A stretch of 64,000 bases of DNA from Xestospongia bergquistia (Eukaryota; Porifera; Demospongiae; Haplosclerida; Petrosiidae). Shown one piece after another: positions 5,027-62,556 of the stretch. Position 1 is the first letter of the stretch. Each line of letters begins with the position of its first letter. The position numbers were made by a program, and so were the translations under genes. Location of the stretch: NCBI GenBank assembly GCA_963965975.1, contig OZ014411.1, forward strand, positions 27,204,249-27,268,248, given 5' to 3'. The notes under the pieces were generated by a model. It did not search any database. It saw nothing but the letters and a program-made list of their open reading frames with translations, and was not told the origin of the DNA.

Positions 5027-8000
5027 AGAGGCAGGAATAAGAGTAAAGTGAAAGTAGAAATGCAAAAGGAAACTAGCCAAATAATTAATATGGTAATTGT
5101 GGTAAGTAATGATGTTCACTAGTTTAAGCTTACTAATATTAATGGTAGCTATCCTAGGTCATAATGGTAAGTATATCACTACAAAAAGTTTGCGTCATTT
5201 CATCCGAGGCTGTGGTTACCATAGTTTCAGGCACATGATGTAAACCCAATACTGACCACAAAGCTAAACTTAGTGTACCTTAATTTGTACAAAGCCATCT
5301 AAAGTAGAATTTGTAGTTTATCATGCAATAATTGAAGCCATAGTATCATGTGCATAATGTAAACTCAATACTGACCACAAAGCTAAACCTAGTGTACCTT
5401 AATTTGTACAAAGCCATCTAGAAGCCAAAAAGTAGAATTTGTAGTTTATCATGCAATAATTGAAGCCATAGTATCATGTGCATAATGTAAGCCCAATACT
5501 GACCACAAAACCTAGTGTAACTCACTACGTACAAAGCCAACTAAAAGCCAAAAAATAGACTTTGTAGTTAACTACCCAATAATTGAACCCATGAGTGGAC
5601 ATTGTAATTCACCTAATTACATTATTCTAATTAAAATTTTATCCGTTATTATAATGCTAAACTGAAGAAAGGTACATGTACTCTTTAAAATATCATAAAA
5701 TGTACCATTCAATTAGACCTTGGCTATCATAGTCAATGTAAGACCAATTTTAAACTACCACACTTACCACAAAAGTAAACCTAGTGTAACTCAATATGTA
5801 TAAAGCAAACTAGAAGTCACAGAATAATATTTGTATGTTTATTGCATAATAATTGAAGCCATAACCAAATAGTATTTCAAACTGAACTGAACAGAACATA
5901 ATGCTCTTTTAATATTATACTAATGTTTAATAATAATAGACTTACCAATGACAGCTATTCTGTAAGTCATGTTAGTAGGCATAGATGCTCATTTATCTAC
6001 AGTTTACTAATTGTGGGATGTTTGTGTACACCCATGTATTATTATGTACATTGTACATCTACTATACATGTATATTAGCACTATACTGTTTCATTAACAT
6101 TGACATACATGCTCTAGTAATTTTTTAGTTATATCAACAACCACTTTGTAGAATATTTGAACAATTTCCTATAGAATCTAGAGTTCATGTTAATTACTCA
6201 TTGTTATGATAAACTATTACATCCTACAGATTATACAGTGAGTAATTTAAAAAACCTTTAATTCCATTGTGTTTTACTGATGTATCTACATTACAAATTA
6301 CTTTGTCAAAGTAATATATTAATTATGACATGTATATATATACTTTAAAACTATAAACCTGTACTAATATTAGTGTTCAATGACAAAGACTTCCATGTTT
6401 ACACAAAATAGATTATTACACTACTGAAACTAATGTAAAAGTGGATTATAGAAATTCTTACAACTGTTAGCACACTAAATCCATTTTATATAGGAATTGT
6501 AAGTGTAGTTAATGTGTATTATAATGTAGTGTGAAATATTTTTATATGTGAATTGTATGATTCACTTTGTCCATTTAGTGGAAGCTTATGTAAAAAAGAC
6601 AGCAGAGAACAAAATAATATTTTGTGAATATCACTTAAAAGTCATGCAATAAACTACCAACAATAATGATTATAACAATATTGATTTATAATAAGAGTGT
6701 CCATAGGACAGATACATATTAATGAATAGAAGAGTTACAATCAATAATAATAATTATTGATTATAAATATTGTACAAATAAATAAGACTACAAGGTCATA
6801 CCTGGAAACAATAGAATGAAACAATATTGGCCCAGAGTTGGTACAAAGACGTTAATATATTAGTGCGTGTTGTTTTTGCAATGTGTATAATTCTCTAATG
6901 AAACTGTCTTTTTAAAATGGATCTAAATGTTTCTTTGCTGACAAAATCCTACTATGCTTGATTTGTAGTACGACACAACATTAATATACTGTATATATAT
7001 GTAATTAATAACTACTTTAAATGTTCAAGTACAAGGATCGATGGATAGACATATACCAGTTATGAATATTGTTATAATGATTTCATTTATAGTTAACAAT
7101 ATGAATATAATTTAATTGTTAATGGAGGGTTACAAATTATTTAGCTAAGTTCTGACACAATTCACTTACCCAGTCTACCAATTTACTTTCTGATTAGTTC
7201 TCATCCAATTTGATCTGTCCTGGACAACGAAAGAGACATGGATACATTTGGAGTAGGAGTAGAACTATAAATGGAGAGTAGGTGGATAATTAATGAGGTC
7301 ATTGTGGTAAGTATACTAATGTTTACTAGTTTAGAGATTACTAATGGGATCTATCATTGTCATAATGGTAAGTACATCACATAGAAACATGGTGTCATTT
7401 CAACCAAGGATTTGATTATCATCTACATGATGTAATATTTTACAACAAAGTTAAACCTAGTGTAACTCAATGTGTAAAAAGCCAAGTAGAAGCCAAAAAG
7501 TAGTCATTGTAGTAACTTACTAATGAGAGCTATACTTAGTCACAGTAGTAAGTACTGATGTTAGTAAAATACAAACTACAAATATTATATTATTTATGAC
7601 ACTTGTTATCACTTTCAATTTCATTCTCGTAAAAATGAGATAAATGTTATCAGACGAGAATGTTTAAAGACTGTTTCTTTGCATTGTTAATTGCTAAGTA
7701 ATAAAAGAAACTACAAAGACATAACTATAAACCAAATGTATAGACAATATGTACTTGTACATGTGTATGTTTACATGTATATGTACATTTGTTGTTATGT
7801 AAATTATACATGTACATTAGTGCTAGGGTTTTTCCATGACAATGAGTTCCACACTCTGATAATATTCAGTTATTTCAACAACAAATTTTGTGGTTACATA
7901 GATAGAATATTATGTAGTAGAGTTCTTGTGAATTATTTACTGTTATGATTACGCTATTACATAGCACAGTGAGTATTCTCATAACTTTTAAATTCCATAA

Positions 8001-9167
8001 TGTTTCACTGACATATTAAGTCACGAACTAGTTGGTCAAAGTAAAATATTTTTGACATAATATATGTACTTTAAAGTATAAATATGTACAAGTGTTAGTG
8101 TTAGTAATAGTAACTCTCTAAAGATATTAAACCATCCTTTCAAAGTGGATTTAAATATTTCTTTGCTGACAAATAAACTGATGGATGATGAATGAACAAA
8201 ATCAATTTCTTAATCTCACTATGCTTGATTTGTAATACAACACAACAATAATATATTGTATAGACATGTAATTAATAACTACTTTAAATGTTCAAGTACT
8301 TATGTATAATAAATGTTGTCTACACACAGTGATAGGTTTATTGCATGATCAGCTGGAAGTTAATGTGTAACCGTGTAATATTACTACTCATACAAGGATG
8401 AATGAATAGAATGACGGACAATTAAAATAAGCATATCTTAATCTTTTATAACTATTTGTTATGCAACAGTAAAAAGAATTCTCTATAAAGACTATTGTTA
8501 TATTGAATAATAGTCAATGTCTCTAAAACCAGTTCTTGGCTTTTTTGAAAGTGGTTATCCCTTTAATCAACACAACTATAAATATGTAGGATCATGTGGA
8601 ATATGTAATGCATGTTGTTTTAGTAGAAGAGTTTGTTGTAGTTTTAGTTATGATAAAATAAATTGATAATGCATTTAAAGGTACATGTAAAAGTACTTGC
8701 ATATAAAGTATTAAATACTATGATTAATGTTAATTAGAGCAAAATACAGCCAGACCATCACTTTAATTAGCACAATAAAATGACTATACCTTTGACATGT
8801 TTAGTATTCATTTATTTTTAATGTATCACAACATAGACAAGAAAGAAGCTTATTACAAGTTGGACAGCTAATACAAGTCAGTTAGGAATTCCTCATTCTG
8901 TCAAAGGAGAGACAACAAACAAAAAATACTATGAAACCAGTTGGAATAGCTAAAACATAAAATTAATTATTGGTTACCTTATAACAATTATATATAGTTG
9001 GTTAAAGAAAGAATTAGAGGTCTATGTTATAAGTGTCAATTTAAAGAGTTTCATTTAGAAGTTTAAGATTGGCAGGTATTAGTAAAACAAAACAGGAAAG
9101 AAAACAAAAAAACAGGAAGTATATTATACATTTGATTTAGTTATAATAACTATTATTAATAACAATT
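5027..9167. repeat. Segmental tandem duplication, copy 1
   Basis: This ~4.1-kb non-coding block is followed directly by a second copy at 9168-13451. The junction shows short microhomology (AGAGGCAGG at 5027 and 9168). The copies match closely, with small indels. No gene is supported inside. The short frame at 7691 recurs in copy 2 with substitutions, but this follows from the duplication and is not evidence of coding. Confidence 0.85.
5220..5590. repeat. Satellite of ~125-bp units, copy 1
   Basis: About three units, each containing CATGTGCATAATGTAA, an ACTGACCACAAAGCTAAAC-type core and TGCAATAATTGAAGCCATA. A diverged unit follows near 5728-5860. Unit number differs from the duplicate array, indicating unequal exchange or slippage after duplication. 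Confidence 0.75.
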
Positions 9168-12100
9168 AGAGGCAGGGATAAGAGTAAAGTGAAAGTAGAA
9201 ATGCAAAAGGAAACTAGCCAAATAATTAATATGGTAATTGTGGTAAGTAATGATGTTCACTAGTTTAAGCTTACTAATATTAATGGTAGCTATCCTAGGT
9301 CATAATGGTAAGTATATCACTACAAAAACTTTGTGTCATTTCATCCGAGGCTGTGGTTACCATAGTTTCAGGCACATGATGTAAGCCTAAAACTAAGTTA
9401 CCACAAAGCTAAACCTAGTGTACCTTAATTTGTACAAAGCCATCTAAAGTAGACTTTGTAGTTTATCATGCAATAATTGAAGCCATAGTATCATGTGCAT
9501 AATGTAAACTCAATACTGACCACAAAGCTAAACCTAGTGTACCTTAATTTGTACAAAGTCATCTAGAAGCCAAAAAGTAGACTTTGTAGTTATCATGCAA
9601 TAATTGAAGCCATAGTATCATGTGCATAATGTAAACCCAATACTGACCACAAAGCTAAACCTAGTGTACCTTAATTTGTACAAAGCCATCTAGAAGCCAA
9701 AAAGTAGTTTATCATGCAATAATTGAAGCCATAGTATCATGTGCATAATGTAAGCCCAATACTGACCACAGAACCTAGTGTAACTCACTACGTACAAAGC
9801 CAACTAAAAGCCAAAAAATAGACTTTGTAGTTAATTACCCAATAATTGAAGCCATGAGTGGACATTGTAATTCACCTAATTACATTATTCTAATTAAAAT
9901 TTTATCCGTTATTATAATGCTAAACTGAAGAAAGGTACATGTACTCTTTAAAATATCATAAAATGTACCATTCAATTAAGACCTTGGCTATCATAGTCAA
10001 TGTAAGACCAATTTTAAACTACCACACTTACCACAAAAGTAAACCTAGTGTAACTCAATGTGTATAAAGCAAACTAGAAGTCACAGAATAATATTTGTAT
10101 GTTTATTGCATAATAATTGAAGTCATAACCAAATAGTATTTCAAACTGAACTGAACAGAACATAATACTCTTTTAATATTATACTAATGTTTAATAATAA
10201 TAGACTTACCAATGACAGCTATTCTGTAAGTCATGTTAGTAGGCATAGATGCTCATTTATCTACAGTTTACTAATTGTGGGATGTTTGTGTACACCCATG
10301 TATTATTATGTACATTGTACATGTACTATACATGTATATTAGCACTATATTGTTTCATTTACTTTGACATACATGCTCTAGTAATTTGTCAGTTATTTCA
10401 ATAACAAACTTGTAAATTATATGAACAATTTACTATAGAATCTAGAGTTCATGTGAATTACTCACTGTTATGATATACTATTACAATCAACAGATTGTAC
10501 AGTGACATAATCTTTAATTCCATTGTGTTTTACTGATGTATCTACATTACAAATTACTTTGTCAAAGTAATATATTAATTATGACATGTATATATATACT
10601 TTAAAACTATAAACCTGTACTAATATTAGTGTTCAATGACAAAGACTTCCATGTTTACACAAAATAGATTATTACACTACCTGATACTAATGTAAAAGTG
10701 GATTATAGAAATTCTTACAACTGTTAGCACACTAAATCCATTTTATATAGGAATTATAAGTGTAGTTAATGTGTATTATAATGTAGTGTAAAATATTTAT
10801 ATATGTGAATTGTATGACTCACTTTGTCCATTTAGTGGAAGCTTATGTAAAAAAGACAGCAGAGAACAAAATAATATTTTGTGAATATCACTTAAAAGTC
10901 ATGCAATAAACTACCAACAATAATGATTATAACAATATTGATTTATAATAAGAGTGTCCATAGGACAGATACATATTAATGAATAGAAGAGTTACAATCA
11001 ATAATAATAATTATTGATTATAAATATTGTACAAATAAATAAGACTACAAGGTCATACCTGGAAACAATAGAATGAAACAATATTGGCCCAGAGTTGGTA
11101 CAAAGACGTTAATATATTAGTGCGTGTTGTTTTTGCAACATGTATAATTCTCTAATGAAACTGTCTTTTTAAAATGGACTTAAATGTTTCTTTGCTGACA
11201 AAATCCTACTATGCTTGATTTGTAGTACGACACAATATTAATATACTGTATATATATGTAATTAATAACTACTTTAAATGTTCAAGTACAAGAATGGATG
11301 ATATACCAGTTATGAATATTGTTATAATGATTTCATTTATATGAATACAGTTAACAATATGAATATAATTTAATTGTTAATGGAGGGTTACAAATTATTT
11401 AGCTAAGTTCTGACACAATTCACTTACCCAGTCTACCAATTTACTTTCTGATTAGTTCTCATCCAATTTGATCTGTCCTGGACAATGAAAGAGACATGGT
11501 AGTAGGAGTAGAACTATAAATGGAGAGTAGGTGGATAATTAATGAGGTCATTGTGGTAAGTATACTAATGTTTACTAGTTTAGAGATTACTAATGGGATC
11601 TATCATTGTCATAATGGTAAGTACATCACATAGAAATATGGTGTCATTTCAACCAAGGATTTGATTATCATCTACATGATGTAATATTTTACAACAAAGT
11701 TAAACCTAGTGTAACTCAATGTGTAAAAAGCCAAGTAGAAGCCAAAAAGTAGTCATTGTAGTAACTTACTAATGAGAGCTACTCTTCATCACAGTAGTAA
11801 GTACTGATGTTAGTGAAATACAAACTACAAATATTATATTACTTATGACACTTGTTATCACTTTCAATTTCATTCTCGTAAAAATGAGATAAATGTTATA
11901 AGACAAGAATGTTTAAAGACTGTTTCTTTGCATTGTTAATTGCTTAGTAATAAAAGAAACCACAAAGACATAACTATAAATCAAATGTATAGACAATATG
12001 TATTTGTACATGTGTATGTTTACATGTATATGTACATTTATTATTATGTAAATTATACATGTACATTAGTGCTAGGGTTTTTCCATTACAATCAGTTCCA

Positions 12101-13451
12101 CACTCTGATAATATTTAGTTATTTCAACAACAAATTTTGTGGTTACATAGATAGAATATTATGTAGTAGAGTTCTTGTGAATTATTTACTGTTATGATTA
12201 CGCTATTACATAGCACAGTGAGTATTCTCATAACTTTTAAATTCCATAATGTTTCGCTGACATATTAAGTCACGAACTAGTTGGTCAAAGTAAAATATTA
12301 ATTTTGACATAATATATGTACTTTAAAGTATAAATATGTACAAGTGTTAGTGTTAGTAATAGTAACTCTCTAAAGATATTAAACCATCCTTTCAAAGTGG
12401 ATTTAAATATTTCTTTGCTGACAAATTAACTGATGGATGATGAATGAACAAAATCAATTTCATAATCCCACTATGCTTGATTTGTAATACAACACAACAA
12501 TAATATATTGTATAGACATGTAATTAATAACTACTTTAAATGTTCAAGTACTTATGTATAATAAATGTTGTCTACACACATAGGTACAGATTTAAGACCA
12601 AAATGTTAACAGTGATAAGTTTATTGCATGATCAGCTGGAAGTTAATGTGTAACCGTGTAATATTACTACTCATACAAGGATGAATGAATAGAATGACGG
12701 ACAATTAAAATAAGCATATCTTAATCTTTTATAACTATTTGTTATGCAACAGTAAAAAGAATTCTCTATAAAGACTATTGTTATATTGAATAATAGTCAA
12801 TGTCTCTAAAACCGGTTCTTGGCTTTTTTGAAAGTGGTTATCCCTTTAATCAACACAACTATAAATATGTAGGATCATGTGAAATATGTAATGCATGTTG
12901 CTTTAGTAGAAGAATTTGTTGTAGTTTTAGTTATGATAAAATAAATTGATAATGCATTTAAAGGTACATGTAAAAGTACTTGCATATAAAGTATTAAATA
13001 CTATGATTAATGTTAATTAGAGCAAAATACAGCCAGACCATCACTTTAATTAGCACAATAAAATGACTATACCTTTGACATGTTTAGTATTCATTTATTT
13101 TTAATGTATCACAACATAGACAAGAAAGAAGCTTATTACAAGTTGGACAGCTAATACAAGTCAGTTAGGAATTCCTCATTCTGTCAAAGGAGAGACAACA
13201 AACAAAAAATACTATGAAACCAGTTGGAATAGCTAAAACATAAAATTAATTATTGGTTACCTTATAACAATTATATATAGTTGGTTAAAGAAAGAATTAG
13301 AGGTCTATGTTATAAGTGTCAATTTAAAGAGTTTCATTTAGAAGTTTAAGATTGGCAGGTATTAGTAAAACAAAACAGGAAAGAAACAAAAAAACAGGAA
13401 GTATATTATACATTTGATTTAGTTATAATAACTATTATTAATAACAATTAG
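9168..13451. repeat. Segmental tandem duplication, copy 2
   Basis: Second copy of the block at 5027-9167. It is slightly longer, mainly because it holds one additional ~125-bp satellite unit (9366-9860). Homology ends at the AACAATTAG sequence near 13450, which matches the end of copy 1 near 9169. Confidence 0.85.
9366..9860. repeat. Satellite of ~125-bp units, copy 2
   Basis: Same units as at 5220-5590, but with about four units. The additional unit accounts for most of the length difference between the two 4-kb blocks. A diverged unit follows near 9985-10120. Confidence 0.75.
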
Positions 13452-35800: not shown

Positions 35801-37605
35801 AGAAATGACAGCTAGTACTGTAGAAACATTTACATTTATCCCATGAACTCTAACTTAGATCAAGCTATTTTCTGTATTTTCATTTACACCTTTATATCCT
35901 ATCATTCTAAGGAGGTAATAACCCTCAAGTAGTCTGAATGTTCAATGTCAGAATATTTGTTTGTTTAGTTTTGAATTTTTTAGTTACTAACTCATAAATA
36001 TGTACACATAATATATTCAATGATTATAATACATTAAAAGAAAGAGTTGTTTCTTATAAAGTATTGTAAACTATTAAATATTAAAAACCGTGAACATTTG
36101 TCATTATTGTTATAATCATTGGATTAGTGTAAGTAAATAACCATCACAAATACAACTGTCTGAAAAACATGTTATTTTCTACATTGGTTCTAGTAAAAAG
36201 TGGTAAAATACCATCAAAGATACAACACTATTACATTGATTGGTATTTTTTAAGTAAAACACAGTAAATATAAGATTTACTTAGCTACTGTAAATATAAG
36301 ATTTACTTAGCTACTGTAAATATAAGATTTACTTAGCTACTGTAAATATAAGATTTACTTAGCTACTGTAAATATAAGATTTACTTAGCTACTGTGTTTT
36401 ACTTAGCTACTGTGTTTTACTTAGCTACTGTGTTTTACTTAGCTACTGTGTTTTACTTAGCTACTGTGTTTTACTTAGCTACTGTGTTTTACTTAGCTAC
36501 TGTGTTTTACTTAGCTACTGTGTTTTACTTAGCTACTGTGTTTTACTTAGCTACTGTGTTTTACTTAGCTACTGTGTTTTACTTAGCTACTGTGTTTTAC
36601 TTAGCTACTGTGTTTTACTTAGCTACTGTGTTTTACTTAGCTACTGTGTTTTACTTAGCTACTGTGTTTTACTTAGCTACTGTGTTTTACTTAGCTACTG
36701 TGTTTTACTTAGCTACTGTGTTTTACTTAGCCACTGTGTTTTACTTAGCTACTGTGTTTTACTTAGCTACTGTGTTTTACTTAGCCACTGTGTTTTACTT
36801 AGCCACTGTGTTTTACTTAGCTACTGTGTTTTACTTAGCTACTGTGTTTTACTTAGCTACTGTGTTTTACTTAGCTACTGTGTTTTACTTAGCTACTGTG
36901 TTTTACTTAGCTACTGTGTTTTACTTAGCTACTGTGTTTTACTTAGCTACTGTGTTTTACTTAGCTACTGTGTTTTACTTAGCTACTGTGTTTTACTTAG
37001 CTACTGTGTTTTACTTAGCTACTGTGTTTTACTTAGCTACTGTGTTTTACTTAGCTACTGTGTTTTACTTAGCTACTGTGTTTTACTTAGCTACTGTGTT
37101 TTACTTAGCTACTGTGTTTTACTTAGCTACTGTGTTTTACTTAGCTACTGTGTTTTACTTAGCTACTGTGTTTTACTTAGCTACTGTGTTTTACTTAGCT
37201 ACTGTGTTTTACTTAGCTACTGTGTTTTACTTAGCTACTGTGTTTTACTTAGCTACTGTGTTTTACTTAGCTACTGTGTTTTACTTATATATATTAGATT
37301 ATAATAAAACATATAATCTAATATATATAATTTGACAAGAGAGATTTGAATTTTCTTATATTAACTAAATAAAAGTAAAATATTGGTCCTCATAAAAAAT
37401 GCTGTATAAATAGCACAGAACTGAATGTGTGTGTTAAAGCATTTATTGATTTTATTCCTTAATGCCAAAATAAAGAGAGACAAGAAATATGATTGATTAC
37501 AACATAGAGACAAAAAGTGGATATTTAAGTTCTATTGATATATATATATATATATAATTATATATCTATATCTATATATATAGATATAGATAGATAGATA
37601 GATAG

Positions 37606-45500: not shown

Positions 45501-46373
45501 AATGGTAAGAGAGAAGTATCATATGAGGCAGGAGAATCATTTGCTAAAGTAAGCATATAAAGATTTGTTTTGTTAGCCATACACTTTTACAATAACCTTT
45601 AACTTACTGATAATCAAAATAACACTTCCTTTTTGAAATCATAGATATTAGAGTATCTATTGTGAAATCAAAATAGTGAGCATTAAGCTATCCCATTGAT
45701 CAACAGTAACTAAGACCACCATATTATATATTCATATTTACTTTCTGCACTGTTTATTAATCAACTTAATGTCAGTTCTTAGAACAGACTTTGTATCATA
45801 ACATTGTAATGCTGGCATGAAAATATAATTATATACAGGATGCTTATGTAAACAAATTTATAACCACCTGCTAATAACACATATAATTACTATGTGTCTG
45901 TCATTGGCCTTGACATTATTAGATTTTTCACATTTTTTTATTTTTTTTTATTTTAGAGATACAATGCTGATTTTATTGAGAGCAGTGCTAAGACAGGATA
46001 TAACGTGGGTAATGCCTGTCTAAAATTAGTGAAGTAAGTATAATTGTACAGTTTCATATTGTGCTTACTTTAATGATGTGGTACTTTCAGTTTAACGTTG
46101 TCATTTTGAAATTCAGTATTGACCTTCTATGTTTTCATACCAGGATCTATATGTTAATTGAAATGTCTTATAATAGACTATCATTGACCTCTTATATAAA
46201 TATTATATTATTTCAGATTTTTGTTTTTGACATATATTGATGTTTAATTGATATTTAATTGATATTTTTCAATTAGTCATTTAGTACAAGAGAGTAGAGC
46301 ACAAGGTGCTGCTCAAGCTAACAGAAGGAGTTTTAGTTCACCTGATACAAAGAAACGTCCATGTTCCTGTTAA
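42600..46373 (+). CDS. Rab-type small GTPase
   Basis: Seven exons: 42600-42737, 43229-43373, 44159-44240, 45261-45375, 45438-45548, 45957-46033, 46277-46373; all phases agree, giving 254 residues. An in-frame ATG at 42495 would add 35 residues rich in arginine and hydrophobics; I prefer 42600 (MSSSEKKRT) but cannot exclude the longer form. GTPase motifs are all present: P-loop GNPHVGKS, switch [21 protein letters not shown] and SSAK. The last residues KKRPCSC give a double-cysteine signal for geranylgeranylation, which anchors Rabs to membranes. A ~50-residue basic, serine-rich N-terminal extension precedes the G domain. The subfamily is not clear; the end of the G domain is somewhat like the large Rab44/Rab45 group, but no EF-hand region was found upstream. 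Confidence 0.88.
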
Positions 46374-46587
46374 AAAAATGACGTCTCTGCTATATTGTAC
46401 AAATCTGAAATTTTTTTTTACTTATATCATGTCATTAAAGCCTCACTTTAATCTTTTGTATAATAATACATAATTATTATATTATTATTACATTTCTTTA
46501 TTCAAGTTTACTCAGCAGTGTATTTTGAGTTTTTATCCCTTGCAACTTTGTAAGCAATAATTTTCTAGTCACACCCACTTTAATTTA

Positions 46588-49500
46588 ATGGATGCTTTAC
46601 TTGATGACGTTAGACGTCTTCCTCTTATTCAACAAAGAGCAGTAGCTGCTATTGTTGGAGCTGTAGTAGCTGATGCAGCAGGTACTTATACCATATTATA
46701 TTGTAGCTATATGAAGTTGTATCAGTAATAAAGTGTCTAGTTAACTTTTGACATGTACATATACACAACATATACTGACATACATATACTTCATAATATT
46801 AAGTCGACTGAGTGTTTATACAGATTTAATTCTGACACAGGATCGAACAACATTACAATTTTTGTACACATGTGGTCACTAATAGTAGTTGTAACAAAAT
46901 ATCATGTGTCGACAAACAATTAAACCTCAACTTGTATCGGAATATTGATCTACATGTGATTAGACTTTAATATGTTAGAATATCAATGGTACATGATCCA
47001 ATAGTCTTGTAAGTGTAAGGCTGACTGTTCGAGACAGGAAGGACACTGATACACATATTAAAATATTAGCATTTAAATTACCTATTAAACTTCACTGAAT
47101 ACATGTTCTCAAGTAATTATCTATTATATATTCAAACACATGGTATATTTTGAGCTGAAAAATTGGTTGTGTGGCCATAGATGAAAAAAATTAGGTGTCC
47201 TTCTAAATTTAAAAAAAATATTTCTTAGCTTCTACCTCTAAGTTATAATGTGCTTAATGTATAATATATAATTTGATCATTTATAATAATTTTTTATAAT
47301 CTTTAAATTCTATTACTTCTTCAGGTTACCTTACATAGATAATGTATTTGTTTTAAATGTCTTTAAAAATATTATTATGTAAATATATCTTTTTAGCTCA
47401 GCCACTTCATTGGATATATGATGATGAGGCCATTTTAAGAGCTGTTGCAAGTAATCCCAATAATCCAGAATACTTTGAGCCATCACATAATCCATATTAT
47501 AATATTCCATGTGGTTCACAAAGTCCTTATGGAGATCAGCTAATAGTGACACTCAGATCTTTAGCAGCTTGCAAAGGTATACCTATTAACACAGATATAA
47601 TGCTTTTTTACTTAACATTCAGTTTAATGTACTCTTTATCTGTAATGCTCTAAATACTTATAAGTAGTGGCTATTACTAAATATATTTAATTGTCTAATT
47701 ACAATTACATTATAATTACTTCCCCTATAGAAAATGCTGATTACAATTACATTACAATTACTTGAGATACTGTAATCATTAATGATCATTACAATTACAA
47801 TTACTGATTACAACAACCCTGCTAGCTACTATTAAATATACTTAATTGTATTGGCTCCTTTCTATGTTCTCCAGATTTAATTAAAAGTCTATTTATATTA
47901 TATGATAACTTGTTATTTTTTATTGTATTAGTTAATATCATGTATGTCTATTTGTTGTAATTAGTTTTATTATAATTTAAAGATAGATATTTAACATCAA
48001 ATAGTGACACGTTAATGAACAATAATTATCTCATTCATGTAGGATTTGATATCTCACACTCAGCTAAGGAGTTTTATGAAAGTTTCGGTCCTGGAACTAG
48101 TTATGATTCCCCTGCTTCTTCATTATATATCGAAGGAGAAGTCCATTTATCATATCCAATTAATGGTCCATGGCTAAACAGAACAATGAGACGTTTCATA
48201 CATTTGTACTCTGATGGAAAGACTGCTGTTGACATTATTAATGATACTTCTGATGATCCAGATTGTATTGCTAGGGCACTACCTTTAATTCTATTATATA
48301 CTAGTTAGTATTAATTGTATTTACACAAAGGTCTGCTTTTCCCTTTATTTAATTTTTAGTTTTCTTCATACTATTAAAATACTATTAGTACTTCATTAAA
48401 AATATTCATTGTCACAGTTTCAACTATTTATTCTAATATTTTCTTTTTAATTATAGGTTCTCCTGACTTAGAGTCATACACTAAACGTATTACTTCTATG
48501 ACACAGTCTAGTGATGTCTCATTGACAGTAGCCAGTGTAGCAATTGAATTAATAAAACTCTATATTCTTAGTGGAGAGGATGCTAATGGAGAGAGCATTA
48601 TCATGAAGGAAATTGACAATTTAAGGTCAGCTATTATTTTGTAATGTATTTGCAATGACAATTTATAATATTAATATGGGTAAATTAAAAATTTTAGAAA
48701 TTTATGTTGGATATCAATACGAATATACGAAACAAGGAGTTTATAACCATAGGTCTCACTACACATTGAGTATAAACCTTTAGTTTGTGACTACTATGTA
48801 AGAATTTTATATTGCCATTTTCACAGTGATCTTGCTTCAAATATTTTGTACTACCATCCTTACATTTCACGAATATGATGTTTTTAGAAATTTCATTTAC
48901 TTGTTTTTTAAATTACATTAAAATTATTATCTTTAAATTTATATTTTATTGTAACATACACTAACATTTAAAAGTTAATTATAATCTCATCTGATCAGCA
49001 TTATCAACTTCATTGAACCTGCTTGTATATTCTATCATCTACATTTATTATCTGACTCATCAAGAGAAATATGTAACAAATAGGCTGTCAAAATAAATAA
49101 TTTTTCTATGACTTAAAAACAAAACATTTTACAAAAGTGCCTCTTATGAAATTGTAGATAATTGTTTTTTTTTAATAGTAGTTTTGTTGGAGCAACACTT
49201 GTTATGTCTCTCCTGTGTTTTTTGAATGGTCTTTTTGATTTTTCAAGCTTCATCTTCCGTTGGCATCTTTTTATCTAGAACAATTTCCTAGTACTTAATG
49301 TTTGCCATTTCTCTGTGAAGTTTTGTAGCTAAAGAAACTGTTATTATCAAGTTATGGCAGTTCAAAGTGAATTGCCAGCTAACTAGTCTTGTCCCCAGAC
49401 TGTCACACGCTCAAGCAGTCTTGTGCATTTACTTCAAATTCCTGGTCTTAGTATCATCAGTGTGATGTGTTAATATCCATTCAATCGTATACTAATAGTC

Positions 49501-50865
49501 ACATGATTAGCAGTGAATGGTCACATGACACATCAACTTTGTGAGAAACAAAGTCAGTAATAGTTTTTATAACATCTCTTTAAACCTCAAAGCTACTGTC
49601 AACCTTTTTAAATAAGTCTTATATTTTAGTTATAATCTTTTTATTATAGAGCTTCACCTAATGTCAACAAGACATCATTTGCAGAGTTACTAAAGCAAGT
49701 ACTAGATGCACACCATCTGTCTATTAAAGATGCAACTCTTAAATTTGGAGGAGAATGAGGTAAGTCACATGATTGTGCCAAAGTACTAGGTGCTTTTGTT
49801 GCCTCCTCTAGCCATACCTGGGTCCTTCCAGTCAGCAATTCATTCACTGTTGGATGGAGGAATTTACACTACTGTGGTGCGAAAGGTAAGTTTAATCTTA
49901 AGCACATTTATTACACCAAGTAATTCTGCCAATTATAAAAACAATGATTTTCTTACTAACCACTGTGGTTTCATATCCTGAACTATACACATCCCATGAA
50001 GTATAAGTGTATCTAGACCACTTTTACTAGGATTACCACTGTGCAGTCTTGGCATTGCCTCTCCTTCACTTAGAGAGGAAGAGTCTGGTGACAAGCTCAT
50101 ATAGGTTCATACAGCAGGAATGGGGATGTGGGTAGACCATACTTAAACCTGAGCATGTGTTAAGAGAGTGAAAATGCAAAAACAGCTGTTGTGATATGCA
50201 CTAGTTGTGGTGATGATCTTTCAAATAGAAGCACAGACTGTCTTTCACTAACTAGCACTGCCTTGTGTCATGTACTGGTTTAGAGCAGCTTCAAGGACTT
50301 TATTAGCCATCATCAATTCGCGTAAAATAAGTGTTAAATGAAAAGTAGGAGCTCATAAGCGCACAGGGCGTTTCTGTAGCCTGCAAGATTTTTACAGCTT
50401 ATACAAGTCCTATATGTGCTTGTACCTAGACCTTTCCTCTCTAAACAAAGGGACAGCAACACCAGACTGTTAGGAAGCTGTCTCTTTACATCAATTTCTT
50501 ATTTCCTGTTGACAACCATTTTCTTAGATTAATTAAAAGAGGGAGTGACTCCAAACCATGATAGCTTTGATATTACTAAGCTACTAGTACTTAATAACAC
50601 AGTAGTATATATTATATGTGATGTCCATATATGGAAGCTGCTAATCATTTCGTGATTACTCATTTTCATTGTTAGCATTGATAATTACGATCATTTATTT
50701 TAGGTAATTCTTGCTGGTGGGTGTAACTGTTCTAGATTAATCGTGGTAGGAGCATGTTTAGGAGCAAAGTATGGACTAGATGGCATTCCGAAAGAATGGA
50801 TGGAGAAAACAAAGGCCATTAATGAAGTTTTGTCTTTGGCAATAAAAGTAGTTAAATTATCATGA
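46588..50865 (+). CDS. SelJ: SelJ-like selenoprotein (ADP-ribosylglycohydrolase / J1-crystallin family)
   Basis: Exons: 46588-46681, 47397-47576, 48043-48303, 48457-48625, 49650-49759, 49812-49885, 50704-50865; all phases agree, giving 349 residues if the TGA at 49756 is read as selenocysteine 271. Family segments: AAIVGAVVADAAGAQPLHWI near the start, SPYGDQ, then after the TGA IPGSFQSAIHSLL, a VILAGG segment with NCSRLIVVGACLGAKYG, and GIPKEW. These match the ADP-ribosylglycohydrolase fold as found in jellyfish J1-crystallins. In established work, SelJ is the selenocysteine-containing branch of that family, known from fishes and some invertebrates. Here the conserved frame continues for 78 residues beyond the TGA, and a SECIS-like hairpin follows the stop. 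The metal-site motif usually written GGD reads GGCNC, so classical hydrolase activity is doubtful. The gene starts 214 bp after the Rab stop and converges with the adhesion GPCR gene. Confidence 0.82.
49756..49758 (+). other. In-frame TGA read as selenocysteine (codon 271)
   Basis: The TGA follows KFGGE and is one base before a perfect donor (G|GTAAGT). The next exon resumes the conserved frame (A-IPGSFQ). No alternative donor avoids the TGA while keeping phase. If it were a true stop it would lie upstream of two exon junctions and probably trigger nonsense-mediated decay. Confidence 0.78.
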
Positions 50866-50884
50866 TTATTAGTTTTCAATATTT

Positions 50885-50962
50885 AGTGATATACTAATTA
50901 ATGATTCCATTTGCACAACCCTTTGTTGGAGGCAATTAGATGATAGCAAATTGTATATCACT
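50885..50962 (+). promoter_or_regulatory. SECIS-like element in the 3' UTR of the SelJ gene
   Basis: Starts 20 bases after the stop codon. A perfect 10-bp helix I is formed by AGTGATATAC (50885-50894) and GTATATCACT (50953-50962). The conserved quartet is ATGA (50901-50904) opposite TGAT (50941-50944). The apical AA is at 50917-50918, 12 bases after ATGA and 22 before TGAT, as in the eukaryotic SECIS pattern. Helix II has about seven pairs with C/A and T/T mismatches. A possible mini-stem (CAAC/GTTG) could form at the apex. ATTAAA at 50972-50977 may be the polyadenylation signal. Confidence 0.78.
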
Positions 50963-51177
50963 AACATCTTAATTAAAGTTTATGTTCTACCATTTAATCA
51001 TAATGACATTAACAAGTAATGTACTTTGTTTCTGGACTCTGTGTATACTTTATATATTAGTAATGTAGAAATTTTATTGAGATTATAACATAATCATCTT
51101 TCACTCTTAACAACTGATAACATTGAACATAAAAGTAGAGGTGTTTATGCAACAATATTTCTTTCAATTGTCTTCAG

Positions 51178-54100
51178 TTACAACTCAGTTATATTTGGCT
51201 CTTCATCAGGTAATGCTTGCTTCATTATAGAATTCACTATCACACTTTCTAATAGTAAAATTATATTTTTATTTCATTTAATCACATGGCACATACCATC
51301 AGGTATCGCACAAGTGGACTGTTCACAGGAAGTAATACTTGTGGAAGTTGATTTAGTCTCTTTAACACTTGCAGCTCCCTGTCCAGTAATCAATTACTAC
51401 ATACATATTAATAGTCAAATCTGCTTACACTTGTTTGCAATGATGATTTGGTAGACACGAAACAACTAGGCAATTTGTAATTTGTTAACTTCTTACGTAG
51501 CCATGCTAAATAGGCTTCCCTCACCTATATATATAAAATGTATGGTATACTATTAAGTATAGGGATAGTAATGTACTGACATGTTTGGAAAGTGGTACAA
51601 ACAGAATGAAGATAAGTAAACCTTGACAGGAAATAAAGATATCCATTAGATAAGCAACAAAGATGAGTTTATCAGAAAAGAAAATAGTGTTCACTAGCCA
51701 TGCTAGTCCCATAATTACTGTCAGTGAAATGGTCGCTTTTAACCATTTTCTGATAAGGGTTAAATAAAATGGAAGCGTGCTTGATTGTATGTACTTGATA
51801 TTAGCAACTTCAGTTTTCTGATGTTCTCTTTTCTTGTGTCTCTGTATTATTGTTATGGCCATTATGAAGAACCCAATGTTAGTCTAAAGGTTAATGCATA
51901 GTTGAAACAATTCAAATATACAATTTATCTGAGATCCTCACTTTCTCAATTTACTAATTTTGTATTAAACTTACAAGTAATATTAATATAACTGGAGCAA
52001 TAAATGTCCATATAAATCCACTTTCATAATTCAACCAGCACCTACATATGCATATGCATCACATTAGAATAATTTACTAGTTAATGTAGTGGTTCTTACG
52101 CAATTAGCTGTTCATCTTGAAAATACAAATAGTGAGTATGACCTTTAATATCATTTGTACCAGCCAAAAATCCAATTGGTACTATGATAGTCATATATAG
52201 TCCTGGTACACCTAAAATGATAGACATATAGTGTGTTCAATTATACACTAACTGACCATAGCTAATAAGTGTAAAGCCAGCAATATAGCGTTTAGGATGT
52301 TTAATAAATATTCTAACTAGAACAACATACAAAACAACACCCTCCATTAACATCCACATAAACGTCACTAAAAACAGATACTGCAATAAGACAGCTATTG
52401 CTGAACAAATAGACTAAATGAAACACAAAAGATTTATATAGAAACTTAGCTGTTTATTAAAAGGGAGCATACCCAATTAGTAGTCTGAGCACTACCAACT
52501 ATAAAAACCAATTGCCCAGCAAATAAATTGATACATAACATCACATGAATATAATTCCTCATACTCCAGAGTGACCTGTATAAGAAAGCAATGTGTAGAG
52601 TGAGTACTCACTTAGCATTTCTACCTCATGCAAATATAAGTTAGTGTTGTCAACAATAAACAAACAAGAGAAATTGGTACAAGAACATAACCTATCAAAT
52701 TCAATCTTTCATAATTCTTGTTGCTAATCTAAGAACAGAAACAGTGGAACACAGAATTATAGTATAACACTTTTCATACTGGTACTCCAGGACTAAGTAA
52801 AATTGCAAAGTGTGTTAAATGATCACATTGACAGGTTACTAATTCACTGTCTTGTCTCGCGATTTTACATCCACTAGTATTCCACTGACCAGTTGGTAGT
52901 GTTGTGTCATCAACAGAACTGATAAAGCATATATAAAAGCATGTAGATATGATAATTTTTATTTAAGACATACAATTCAAAGTTCCAAAATACACAGTTG
53001 AGAGTGTCATTCATTAGTATCTGTGATGGTAAAATAAATTTGATGGTATATGAAATATTGGAAAATCATACCTGTTGACCAGATATGTTAAATGTTATGT
53101 TAACAGGTTGATTGAAACCATTTTGTGAGTAGTCAATGTTAACAGTTGAAGATAGACAATTTGATAAAAGTTTCTGACTATTGCTATGAGGTGGCAAGAA
53201 TCTGGATATGTTCATATAACAAAATGATGCAACTGTCACAGGTAAACTATTAAACAGTTCAAGTGGTAAAGTAATAGAATTGCCATCCATGGAAAATACT
53301 TCAATTGGACCAGTGGTGTTTTTGATCTCCCTAACATCAAGTGCTTGGAGAAAGAAGAAAGGAAGAAACAAAATTGACTAATTCAAAATGATGTTGTGGT
53401 TTGTGGATTATGTCTGGTAAGAACATACCAATGTTTTTTCTAAGAAGTGTCTTATTAGAATCTTGGAGGTTAAGAGCAAATGTATCTAATGTTAAGAGCA
53501 GCTGACTCCACATAGAACGTCTTTTGACCTGAAAGTACAACAGTGCACATTGCATGTTGACAATAATGTTATTTTACCACATCATCAGGAATATTATCAC
53601 TGCCCATCATGTTGTTAGTTGCGTCTAATACAAGCTACAGAAGGTCATATTAACACAATACTAGTGGTATATAAGTGTACCTTGGAGACATTTGTAGTAA
53701 ATGACTGATTGGACTTGTTGATGATGGAATCAAATATGACAAATGATTCTTCAAATGTCATTGTCTCATTTTTTTGACTATCTACAAATTTATTTAAAGC
53801 TCTATTTGGAGTATGAGTGATCTATATAAGAGTGAAATGAGTGACAATACTAAAGTATATTATACCTCTGACCAAATAGTTGTAAATGTACTGCTGGTAA
53901 AGCAATACTCTTTATCCCATTTGAAAGTTTGATTATTACAACGTCTGGTTCCTATATTTTAAGTAAGTACAAAATTTATAGTCATTATATTTGTATAATA
54001 CCATTAACACATCCTCTGTAACAATGGACACCTGTAGCATTTTCACCTCCTATTGTCTCAGGCCATCCTCCTTTCTTAGGGCATGGTGATGGAGTGGTCA

Positions 54101-55578: not shown

Positions 55579-56985
55579 TCACTCATCTTCTCTCAATTGA
55601 CAGAACATTTTAAGTCCCTCAGGTAAAGGTAGATTAGAGATACGATCAGGAACAGCATTTGTACTAGCTAGTATAACATATCGACATAACTCCTTCAATG
55701 TATTAGGAGAAGATAAAGCTCGAAGTGCCTCATATTCACGATATATGTACTCCAATCCTTCATAAGGGACATACAGACATCGATGACCAACTGCTACTTT
55801 TCCAACAATTTGAAATGTTCTACTAAACTGTATAGGAATTGGTATCTTCTTATCGTCCCATGTAATACCCACGGTGAGATCACAGTTTGTGATAGTACGT
55901 CCAACTCCTTCAATTATGCCTTGATGGATATTTTCTTGACTAGCTACTGCATTAGATGGCAGATCTCCATTACTTGCTAGTTCCCATGTAAAGCCACTGG
56001 GATCATCAACAACAAGTATCTCATATGTATGTTTCATGTGCTCAGTACATCCCCAACATATCATACAACACTTCTTTGAGGGAACTACATGACCTGATAC
56101 TGTCTCTCTTCTATGTTTAGCTCGAGCAACATGTGTGACTTCTCCGCTAGCAGTGGTTCCTCCAATTAAAGCACCAGCAGGTACTTTACCATCAGAGTCT
56201 TCCACCCATTGCCATGTACTGACGCTTGAATCTATCTTCACTGGTGGAATGTAAGCACATAGAACTAAATACTTGTGAACAATGTACTCATGACCATCAT
56301 TTGGTATATACAAGCAATGATGACTTGGATGAACTTTACCAAGTAGAGAACCTGAGAATCTTTTCGGTAGTTTTAGTCTTTTCTTACCATCCGCTGTACG
56401 ACCTTCAATTTCAGGACCAGGATAAGTCTTAGCAATGTAGAGTTCTTCAGTTGGAAAATAAGAGTAACTAGAAATATAATTGTTACCAACACCAACAGCT
56501 AAAGGAGGTACACTGCCATTATCACCTTCACTCCAAAACAAAACTGCTGGATCATCACATACTAGAACTTCATACTCATGTAGTCGATGTTCAATACAAC
56601 CATATGGTACAGAAGCTATACCAGATGATGGAATTAAAGCACAAGGAACTCTGCCATGAAACTGTGGACTAGAAACTCGAGCAACATAAGTAGTTTCACC
56701 TATAGTAAAAAAAATCTGAGATAGACATTAGGATTATCCTTGTGATGACGTTTTTAAATTTGTGGTAAAAACAGATTCTAGTGCTTAGTCTCAATTTAAT
56801 GGACTTTATCACTAATTGCTAATTAAAGTCACTTTTATTGCTATTGCTATTTATATATTTATTAACAACTTAATAATATTGAGTGTCTTTATACCGTTGG
56901 TTGTCACTCCTCCAGCCACAGCACCAGGTGGTACGAGGGTTCTTCGACTTGCTTTAACCCAACGAAGAGGACTGGTACTGGACAT
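55579..56985 (-). CDS. DM9-repeat protein with C-terminal SOCS-box-like motif (pair 1, minus)
   Basis: Exons 56985-56895 and 56699-55579 (phase 1 junction inside the first DM9 motif), giving 403 residues. Four DM9 (DUF3421) repeats are visible, each built as W-x4-G-x-(V/L)P-x2-A-(V/I)-x-(G/V)G, then (T/L)YVAR or YIAK, then a YEVLV-type end: residues ~8-80, 83-180, 185-265 and 268-355. The last ~45 residues fit a SOCS box: TLKELCRYVI (BC-box form T/S-L-x3-C-x3-hydrophobic) and ISNLPLPEGLKMFC (Cullin-5-box form LP-hydrophobic-P). No signal peptide or membrane segment, so it should be cytosolic. DM9 proteins in oysters bind mannose and act in immune recognition; SOCS boxes recruit Elongin B/C and Cullin to ubiquitinate a bound target. 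The combined role is inferred. Confidence 0.85.
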
Positions 56986-57646: not shown

Positions 57647-58943
57647 ATGAGTAGTTCTCCTCTTCAGTGGGTCAAGGCAACAAACGGAAATGTGCCACCT
57701 CATGCTGTACCTGGAGGTGTGACAACACAAGGTACAAATATTAAAGTATAAATATAATGTTAATTGTGATAGCTACTTGGTATTCTTATTGGTAGGTGAG
57801 ACCACGTATGTTGCTCGTACAACTATCCTATTGTTTGAAGGCAAACTCCCATGTATTGTTATTCCATCCACTGGTATAGCCTCACTAGCATACAATGGCA
57901 TTGAATATAAAGTAACTGAATATGAAGTACTTGTTTGCCTTGATCCAGAAATTCTTTTTTGGGTACAAAGCTCCTGTAGCAGTTTGCCTCCATTAGCTGT
58001 TGGAGTTGGTAATGCACATTATTATCGATGTAATGGTGAAGAAATGTATGTTGCTAGAACATGTAGTGGGTCCTTTAAAAATATAAAAGGTTCCATGACC
58101 AATGCAAGAAAGAAAGTTACCAAGTCAGAGTCTCTCATGTGTTCTTTGGTTGGAAGGCTCCATTCTCATTATCGTGGTTTGTATGTACCATATGAAGGCA
58201 AAGAATATATTGTCAAAACCTATGAGGTACTTTGTGCATATATACCACCTCCAACAGTGCATTCTTGTCCTAATGAATGGACATGGATAAAGGTATTAAA
58301 TGGAGAGATTCCTGAAGGTGCTTTAGCTGGAGGTACCACAGCTAGTGGAGAAGTCACCTATGTTGCTAGAGCTCAACATATATGGGAAAATTTAAGGTTA
58401 TGTGGTCAGTTTATACCATCTGAAAGAAAATGTCTGATTTGTTTGGGTGGTAAAGCACATATGAAGAATACATTTGAGGTACTTGTAGTAGATGACAAGG
58501 ATGGATTTGTATGGGAGCTAGCATCAAATGGTGATCTACCAAAAGATGCTGTTCTTAGTCAACTAAAACATTTCCATCCACTGGAAGGTGTTGGACGTAC
58601 TATTACATATTCAGATATCAGCGTAGGATTTACAGCAGACATGAGAAGACTGCCTCTTCCATGCAAAGGGTCAAATGCCAATATACAATTAATTGGCCGA
58701 GTATCAGTTGGTAGATGGGTCATGTATGCTCCCTATGAAGGATTGGAGTACATATATCGTGAATATGAGGCACTTCGAGCTTTATCTTCTCCTAATACAT
58801 TGAAGGAGTTATGTCGATATGTTATACTAGCTAGTACAAATGCTGTTCCTGATCGTATCTCTAGTCTACCTCTACCTGAGGGACTTAAAGTGTTCTGTCA
58901 ATTGAGAGAAGATGAGTGGAATAATTGTACCAAATTGAATTGA
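57647..58943 (+). CDS. DM9-repeat protein with C-terminal SOCS-box-like motif (pair 1, plus)
   Basis: Exons 57647-57731 and 57796-58943, giving 410 residues; the intron sits at the same place and phase as in the minus-strand partner. Four DM9 repeats (WVKATNGNVPPHAVPGG, then VGVGNAHYYRCNGEEMYVAR, GALAGGTTASGEVTYVAR, WELASNGDLPKDAV). The tail carries TLKELCRYVI and ISSLPLPEGLKVFC, then a short extension ending CTKLN. The DM9 part is clearly diverged from the divergent neighbour, while the last ~180 bases (58741-58920) are almost identical to it, which suggests gene conversion. Probably cytosolic. Confidence 0.85.
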
Positions 58944-61149: not shown

Positions 61150-62556
61150 TCACTCATCTTTCCTAAATTGACAGAACACTTTAAGTCCCTCAGGTAGAGG
61201 TAGACTAGAGATACGATCAGGAACAGCATTTGTACTAGCTAGTATAACATATCGACATAACTCTTTCAAAGTATTAGGAGAAGATAAAGCTCGAAGTGCC
61301 TCATAATCATGATATATGTACTCCAATCCTTCATAAGGGACACACAGACATCGATGACCAACTGCTACTTTTCCAACAATTTGAAATGTTCTACTAAACT
61401 GTATAGGAATTGGTATCTTCTTATCGTCCCATCTAATACCCATGGTGAGATCACAGTCTCTGACAGTACGTCCAACTCCTTCAATTATGCCTTGATGGAT
61501 ATTTTCTTGACTAGCTACTGCATTAGGTGGCAGCTCTCCATTCCTTGCTAGTTCCCATGTAAAGCCACTGGGATCATCAACAACAAGTATCTCATATGTA
61601 TGTTTCATGTGCTCAGTACATCCCCAACATATCATACAACACTTCTTTGAGGGAACTACATGACCTGATACTGTCTCTCTTCTATGTTTAGCTCGAGCAA
61701 CATATGTGACTTCTCCGCTAGCAGTGGTTCCTCCAATTAAAGCACCAGCAGGAATTTTACCATCAGAGTCTTCCACCCATTGCCATGTACTGACGCTTGA
61801 ATCTATCTTCACTGGTGGAATGTAAGCACATAGAACTAAATACTTGTGAACAATGTACTCATGACCATCATTTGGTATATACAAGCAATGATGACCTGGA
61901 TGAACTTTACCAAGTAGAGAACCAGAGAATCTTTTTGGTAGTTTTAGTCCTTTCTTACCATCTGCTGTACGACCTTCAATTTCAGGACCAGGATAAGTCT
62001 TAGCAATGTAGAGTTCTTCAGTTGGAAAATAAGAGTAACTAGAAATATAATTGTTACCAACACCAACAGCTAAAGGAGGTACACTGCCATTATCACCTTC
62101 ACTCCAAAACAAAACTGCTGGATCATCACATACTAGAACTTCATACTCATGTAGTCGATGTTCAATACAACCATATGGTACTGAAGCTATACCAGATGAT
62201 GGAATTAAAGCACAAGGAACTTTGCCATGAAACTGTGGACTAGAAACTCGAGCAACATAAGTAGTTTCACCTATAGTAAAAAAAATCTGAGATAGATGTT
62301 AAGATTATCCTTGTAATGATGTTTTTAAATTTGTGGAAATAACAGTTTTTAGTTCTTGGTCTTAATTTAATGGACTTTATCACTAATTGCTAATTAAAGT
62401 CACTTTTATTCCTATTGCTATTTATATATTTATTAACAACTTAATAATATTGAGTGTCTTTATACCGTTGGTTGTCACGCCTCCAGCCACAGCACCAGGT
62501 GGTACGAGGGTTCCTCGACTTGCTTTAACCCAACGAAGAGGACTGGTACTGGACAT
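61150..62556 (-). CDS. DM9-repeat protein with C-terminal SOCS-box-like motif (pair 2, minus)
   Basis: Exons 62556-62466 and 62270-61150, giving 403 residues, almost identical to the product of 55579-56985. Four DM9 repeats and the SOCS-like tail (TLKELCRYVI, ISSLPLPEGLKVFC, end FRKDE) are intact. In the SOCS tail it matches the plus-strand gene of pair 1 (SSLPLPEGLKVF) better than its own minus-strand paralogue (SNLPLPEGLKMF), again pointing to sequence exchange. Substitutions elsewhere are mostly conservative, so the gene is probably under constraint. Confidence 0.85.

Follow-up and report, generated by a model that had tools for sequence, protein, structure and literature searches.

A SelJ-type gene of the demosponge Xestospongia bergquistia with an in-frame TGA at the family Sec/Cys column and a SECIS candidate in its 3′ UTR

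The SelJ family of selenoproteins was reportedly defined by Castellano et al. in 2005. Within vertebrates it is restricted to fishes, according to the excerpted text of one source (PMC3316567), a Sec-containing SelJ has already been published for algae (as given in an excerpt of PMC7539508), and Table 1 of Jiang et al. 2012, taken as an excerpt of that paper, lists one SelJ in amphioxus and none in Amphimedon (PMC3473315). Our literature search for a Sec-type SelJ in a sponge found no report; the nearest published item is a subtraction-library hit from Cliona varians named 'Selenoprotein Jb; J1a crystallin', for which the excerpted source gives no evidence of Sec (PMC4144087). A literature search for J1-crystallin with ADP-ribosylglycohydrolase likewise found no paper.

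Here we describe a locus in a 64,000-nucleotide stretch of the Xestospongia bergquistia genome (the window) that is very probably a functional demosponge SelJ-type selenoprotein gene. As far as our searches show, a sponge Sec-type SelJ is new within the known family, and with it a sponge joins the animals that have this form. The gene shares with SelJ (SELENOJ) of fish, amphioxus and algae the domain, the Sec column (at which fish and amphioxus models end) and the combination of UGA with a SECIS, a candidate element in the sponge gene; its product is about 35% identical to fish SelJ. The closest named relative is a crystallin J1A-like protein of Amphimedon queenslandica (P0001), with 50% identity over the full length, which differs in having Cys at the Sec column and GGDICSR where the window protein has GGCNCSR. 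The cnidarian J1-crystallin-like protein of Clytia (P0018) has the same domain and the same GGCNCSR loop but differs in its Cys at the column, its 32% identity and its placement in a separate clade (100/100). The ADP-ribosylhydrolases DraG, ARH3 and MJ1187 share the overall fold at 14–17% identity.

Gene structure and the column of the in-frame TGA

The coding sequence rebuilt from the window comprises seven exons on the + strand (46588-50865; 1050 nt) and encodes 349 residues followed by a terminal TGA. All six introns are of the GT-AG type, the exon phases join, and the rebuilt frame holds exactly one internal stop, a TGA at residue 271. The original prediction had described seven phase-consistent exons with this single TGA, as well as the junctions 49759/49812 and 49885/50704, and the rebuilt model reproduces all of these. 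The features are:

46588..46681 (+): exon 1, with the start ATG; splice model, donor GT at 46682
47397..47576 (+): exon 2, with the HWIYDD motif; splice model and homology
48043..48303 (+): exon 3; splice model and homology
48457..48625 (+): exon 4; splice model and homology
49650..49759 (+): exon 5, ending 1 base past the TGA; splice model, donor GAG/gtaagt
49756..49758 (+): in-frame TGA (codon 271), interpreted as selenocysteine; Cys/Sec column of the alignments
49812..49885 (+): exon 6 (IPGSFQSAIHSLL); splice model and homology
50704..50865 (+): exon 7, with the GGCNCSR loop, GACLGAKYG, GIPKEW and the stop TGA at 50863-50865; splice model and homology

With the TGA entered as C, the protein scores 120.8 bits against the Pfam ADP_ribosyl_GH family (cut-off 26.2); the match spans residues 20-327 and hence extends to both sides of the TGA. 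The TGA is followed directly by intron 5, which is only 52 nt long, and its position a single base 5′ of the donor of that intron lends some support to an error in the assembly or to an undetected splice variant without the TGA. We nevertheless regard this as the least probable of the alternatives, as the sole fitting GT donor lies past the TGA, skipping the codon would remove an invariant column, skipping exon 5 (110 nt) would break the frame, and an error does not explain the SECIS-like hairpin downstream of the gene.

Among 110 retrieved relatives, the column of residue 271 holds Cys in 51 (including the fragment P0056, whose Cys is probably an alignment accident), Val in one and a gap in 58. 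The TGA codon replaces this one nearly invariant Cys without any gap in the alignment. The sequences of 28 of the 110 end at the column, some of them named selenoprotein J: these include models from fish (three named selenoprotein J), Branchiostoma, four scallops, Nucella and the octocoral Dendronephthya, along with Logan or JGI proteins, e.g., P0017, P0050 and P0054. The count derives from 34 models with three or fewer residues past the column, less six fragments that end elsewhere (P0052, P0088, P0105, P0108, P0109 and P0110); 11 of the remaining 28 stop immediately ahead of the column, and in 17 the aligner placed 2–3 residues past it. Eight further gapped relatives, including a tilapia selenoprotein J and Branchiostoma floridae, skip the column. 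Here and below, the Sec state of other species is read from gene models ending at the column and not from stop codons. The SelJb of salmonids has Cys exactly at the column in a PNS/PNT context that it shares with the fish models ending there, which identifies codon 271 as the Sec position of SelJ. The alignment check proposed for the original prediction thereby places residue 271 on the Sec/Cys column of the SelJ/J1 family.

Beyond the TGA, identity to the Amphimedon relative is 42/78 (53.8%), as compared to 121/258 (46.9%) before it, and in five of the five relatives compared the identity after the TGA exceeds that before it. Since the C-terminal part is generally the more conserved, we take this as continued rather than additional constraint; the earlier claim that family-specific sequence resumes after the TGA is borne out by it.

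A recent pseudogene or damaged allele, in which a Cys codon has turned into TGA while the rest is still undecayed, would account for the same stop, TGC and TGT being one step from TGA and the Amphimedon relative having Cys at the column. However, the sole stop, at one of 349 codons, falls exactly on the family Sec column, every splice site and the 78 later codons are intact, and a SECIS candidate lies 3′ of the gene. Moreover, a search of the sponge's own 146-Mb assembly (the window lies in its contig 1) with the window protein, in which nine candidates were scored, gave seven matches, all at the SelJ-type locus; the gene is single copy, and no intact copy covers for a damaged one. We accordingly consider decay improbable and retain the reading as a selenoprotein gene, with its in-frame TGA at the Sec/Cys column and conserved sequence on both sides.

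Automated gene prediction truncates such genes at the TGA, as the 28 of 110 relatives ending there illustrate, and the distribution of Sec-type SelJ in databases is consequently under-read. Six proteins from octocoral, whelk and scallop that are named crystallin J1A-like or hypothetical (P0089, P0076, P0026, P0036, P0037 and P0039) stop at the Sec column, and from their sequences are probably mis-annotated Sec-SelJ genes. As a separate observation on names, the shark proteins P0008, P0014, P0015, P0035 and P0041 are called selenoprotein J and have Cys at the Sec column.

The SECIS candidate and the selenocysteine machinery

Two elements follow the stop codon:

50883..50964 (+): SECIS candidate hairpin; minimum-energy fold, structure-scan score -20.0 (rank 1 in the window), shuffles
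50972..50977 (+): ATTAAA, possible poly(A) signal just 3′ of the hairpin; word match only

The original prediction did not include a SECIS for this gene; the candidate is an addition of the present analysis. The minimum-energy fold of 50866-51000 is a long hairpin, in which helix I pairs 50883-50899 with 50949-50964 (16 pairs, one bulge), followed by a core of AUGA (50901-50904), 12 nt, AA (50917-50918) and, on the 3′ side, UGAU (50941-50944). The AUGA lies 35 nt past the stop codon and 272 nt past the TGA in the spliced message; the upper helix is weak (-4.2) and contains mismatches. In the excerpted text of PMC3473315, an AUGA_AA core is described, and GUGA is found in 12 of 21 sponge SECIS elements.

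We scanned for a RUGA / AA / GA core between two helices, using general spacings in a scan written after the hairpin had been seen. The window yields 23 hits (13 on the + strand and 10 on the - strand), with the runner-up to the candidate at -13.5. When the 435-nt 3′ region was shuffled 5000 times, 79 of the shuffles gave any hit at all (best -15.6) and none reached -20; of 60 shuffles of the window, scanned on the + strand, the best is -18.0 and none attains the candidate's score. Structure scan and shuffles together thus place a candidate SECIS element in the 3′ UTR. Elsewhere in the genome, four further SECIS-like elements, all AUGA_AA, score from -19.6 to -33.4; that at -33.4 sits 97 nt after an Rdx-family match, two elements that are genomic Rfam SECIS hits score -19.6 and -20.7, and a second element near one of these scores -24.1. 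The best hit downstream of the Sec-GPx exon is -10.3, and no strong element was found in the stretches scanned after SPS2, which indicates that the sensitivity of the scan is limited. Rfam SECIS_1 did not report the hairpin over 46000-53000 or 50850-51250 at E up to 10; as the same model gives two elements, best candidates only, over the 146-Mb genome, we do not count its silence as absence of a SECIS.

Two other detectors were set aside. A loose ATGA..AA..TGA pattern performs no better than chance (525 found versus 508 expected), and a covariance model built from the four own-genome elements was dropped because its alignment broke one of the four. Two similar SECIS-like hairpins on contig 8 of the assembly (G000; L050 4065 on the + strand and 1884 on the - strand) lie on opposite strands with about 2.2 kb between them, one adjoining, by eye, a SelW-like reading frame; they are probably a pair of inverted selenoprotein genes.

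The check for Sec machinery in the same genome came out largely positive, with tRNA-Sec, SepSecS, eEFSec and SPS2 found and SBP2, sought through the L7Ae domain family, not found. One tRNA-Sec match exceeds the cut-off (78 bits) and four weaker ones (43–45 bits) fall below it; as a control, the family matched in 14 of 14 bacterial and archaeal genomes, over the cut-off in five. ARAGORN also calls the 78-bit locus tRNA-Sec, with anticodon tca. For SepSecS, contig 13 carries five matches, the best at 109.3 bits. Of 11 selB-type matches, the one tested further as eEFSec is an exon (L025) below the selB cut-off, the best PDB match of which is eEFSec (E 6e-12) versus archaeal SelB (3e-5); the remaining matches were discarded on visual inspection as EF-1A, mitochondrial EF-Tu, eRF3, eIF2-gamma and GTPBP-like exons. 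SPS2 gives two exon matches below the selD cut-off, with LKGUGCKVPQ upstream when TGA is read as U, and among the GPx loci one reads NVASEUG (TGA as U) and another NVASECG; we take NVASEUG of GPx and GUGCKVPQ of SPS2 to be known Sec motifs. Searches of the genome for Sep15/SelM found none, and the controls likewise gave no match.

UGA decoding in selenoproteins can be incomplete. This general background is all that speaks for decoding of the UGA as another amino acid or for a regulated stop that yields products of 270 and 349 residues; the family column being Cys or Sec, the SECIS candidate and the Sec machinery in the genome all stand against it, and we consider it highly improbable. Computation, namely of the gene model, the TGA column, the post-TGA conservation, the hairpin and the Sec machinery, strongly supports the reading as a sponge SelJ-type selenoprotein, which has both the ADP_ribosyl_GH/J1-crystallin domain and a Sec codon at the SelJ column. 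In the mechanism that we propose, the spliced mRNA would carry UGA at codon 271, the hairpin would act as SECIS from 3′ of the stop codon, the Sec factors and tRNA-Sec (anticodon UCA) would, we infer, insert selenocysteine at 271, and translation would proceed 78 residues beyond Sec271.

The sponge source is consistent with COX1 on contig 21, which, read with code 4, gives 447 residues 100% identical to a 19-member UniRef cluster named Demospongiae (representative I6LIL5_XESMU, where XESMU is presumably Xestospongia muta), an identity that supports a demosponge and is too conserved for species assignment. Broken COX1-like pieces in a nuclear contig (G000:C6:3154917-3155898 and 3199148-3200446) are probably nuclear copies of mitochondrial DNA.

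Evolution of the Sec/Cys state

A maximum-likelihood tree of 55 rows (54 of the 110 relatives and the window protein) joins the window protein with Amphimedon P0001 (99/93), then with P0002, which has Cys (98/85), and then with P0017, which ends at the column (99/83). Both states are hence present in the window's own clade, and, the closest named sponge relative being a Cys form, the Sec/Cys state varies among demosponges, making pairwise comparison possible. The tree requires at least seven Sec/Cys changes, with Acanthaster P0006 (column skipped) outside the count; five are forced by well-supported branches, and gain and loss are indistinguishable in direction. A second tree, of 49 proteins and the window protein, was given further ARH proteins as its outgroup; in it P0054 and P0050, both ending at the column, lie near the base with open forks, the seven outgroup rows do not all form one group, and P0017 is placed with poor support. 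These two JGI metagenome proteins end exactly at the Sec column and form deep branches in the trees, and from their sequences may possibly be Sec forms outside animals. In the trees, the window protein falls outside both the fish/amphioxus/mollusc SelJ clade and the clade of the Clytia crystallin J1A-like protein. It forms a separate branch with Amphimedon in trees of uncertain root; it does not group with the cnidarian J1-like Clytia P0018, the cubozoan lens J1 proteins being outside the tree.

The sponge gene is compatible with an ancient Sec form that was lost repeatedly, with repeated gains as the alternative. The original prediction of a sponge SelJ stands as to the sponge, the TGA at the Sec/Cys column, the SECIS-like hairpin and the Sec machinery; the basal animal origin that it proposed for the Sec form, followed by loss in other lineages, is one possible history, given the Cys of Amphimedon, the algal Sec-SelJ and the undirected changes. 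Given the algal proteins, Sec may predate animals or have arisen repeatedly. We tentatively give slightly less than an even chance to a history in which the Sec form is pre-animal and the sponge gene its direct survivor: sponges, octocorals, molluscs, amphioxus and fish would have retained Sec, Amphimedon, sharks, limpets and others would have exchanged it for Cys independently, and J1-type proteins would derive from a distinct Cys lineage. If true, Sec/Cys switches within demosponges would provide natural pairs for testing the contribution of Sec to the fold.

Predicted chemistry and other features of the window

The GGDTDS loop of DraG, ARH3 and MJ1187, which we take to be the metal-binding loop of ADP-ribosylhydrolases, is GGCNCSR in the window protein, its Asp-Thr-Asp being replaced by Cys-Asn-Cys (303-305). 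From these residues we infer a thiol/selenol protein in which Sec271 would act with the Cys pair 303/305, in a redox or metal-thiolate role, instead of an ordinary metal-dependent ADP-ribosylhydrolase; Sec271 is predicted to lie spatially near the pair. The Cys-Asn-Cys loop together with Sec271 offers a testable idea of function for the SelJ/J1 family, for the biochemistry of which we found no description in the sources consulted.

Elsewhere in the window, a minisatellite at 36380-37287 comprises an 18-base unit repeated about 50 times (99% match) and is open in two frames. Three long related open frames lie at 55579-56727 (-), 57723-58943 (+) and 61150-62298 (-), two of which are nearly identical copies of 382 residues separated by about 5.6 kb. 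Across about 5100-8800 and 9250-13100, and also at 91-1839, short words repeat at spacings of about 4.1–4.3 kb and 1.05 kb, which suggests recent tandem duplications.
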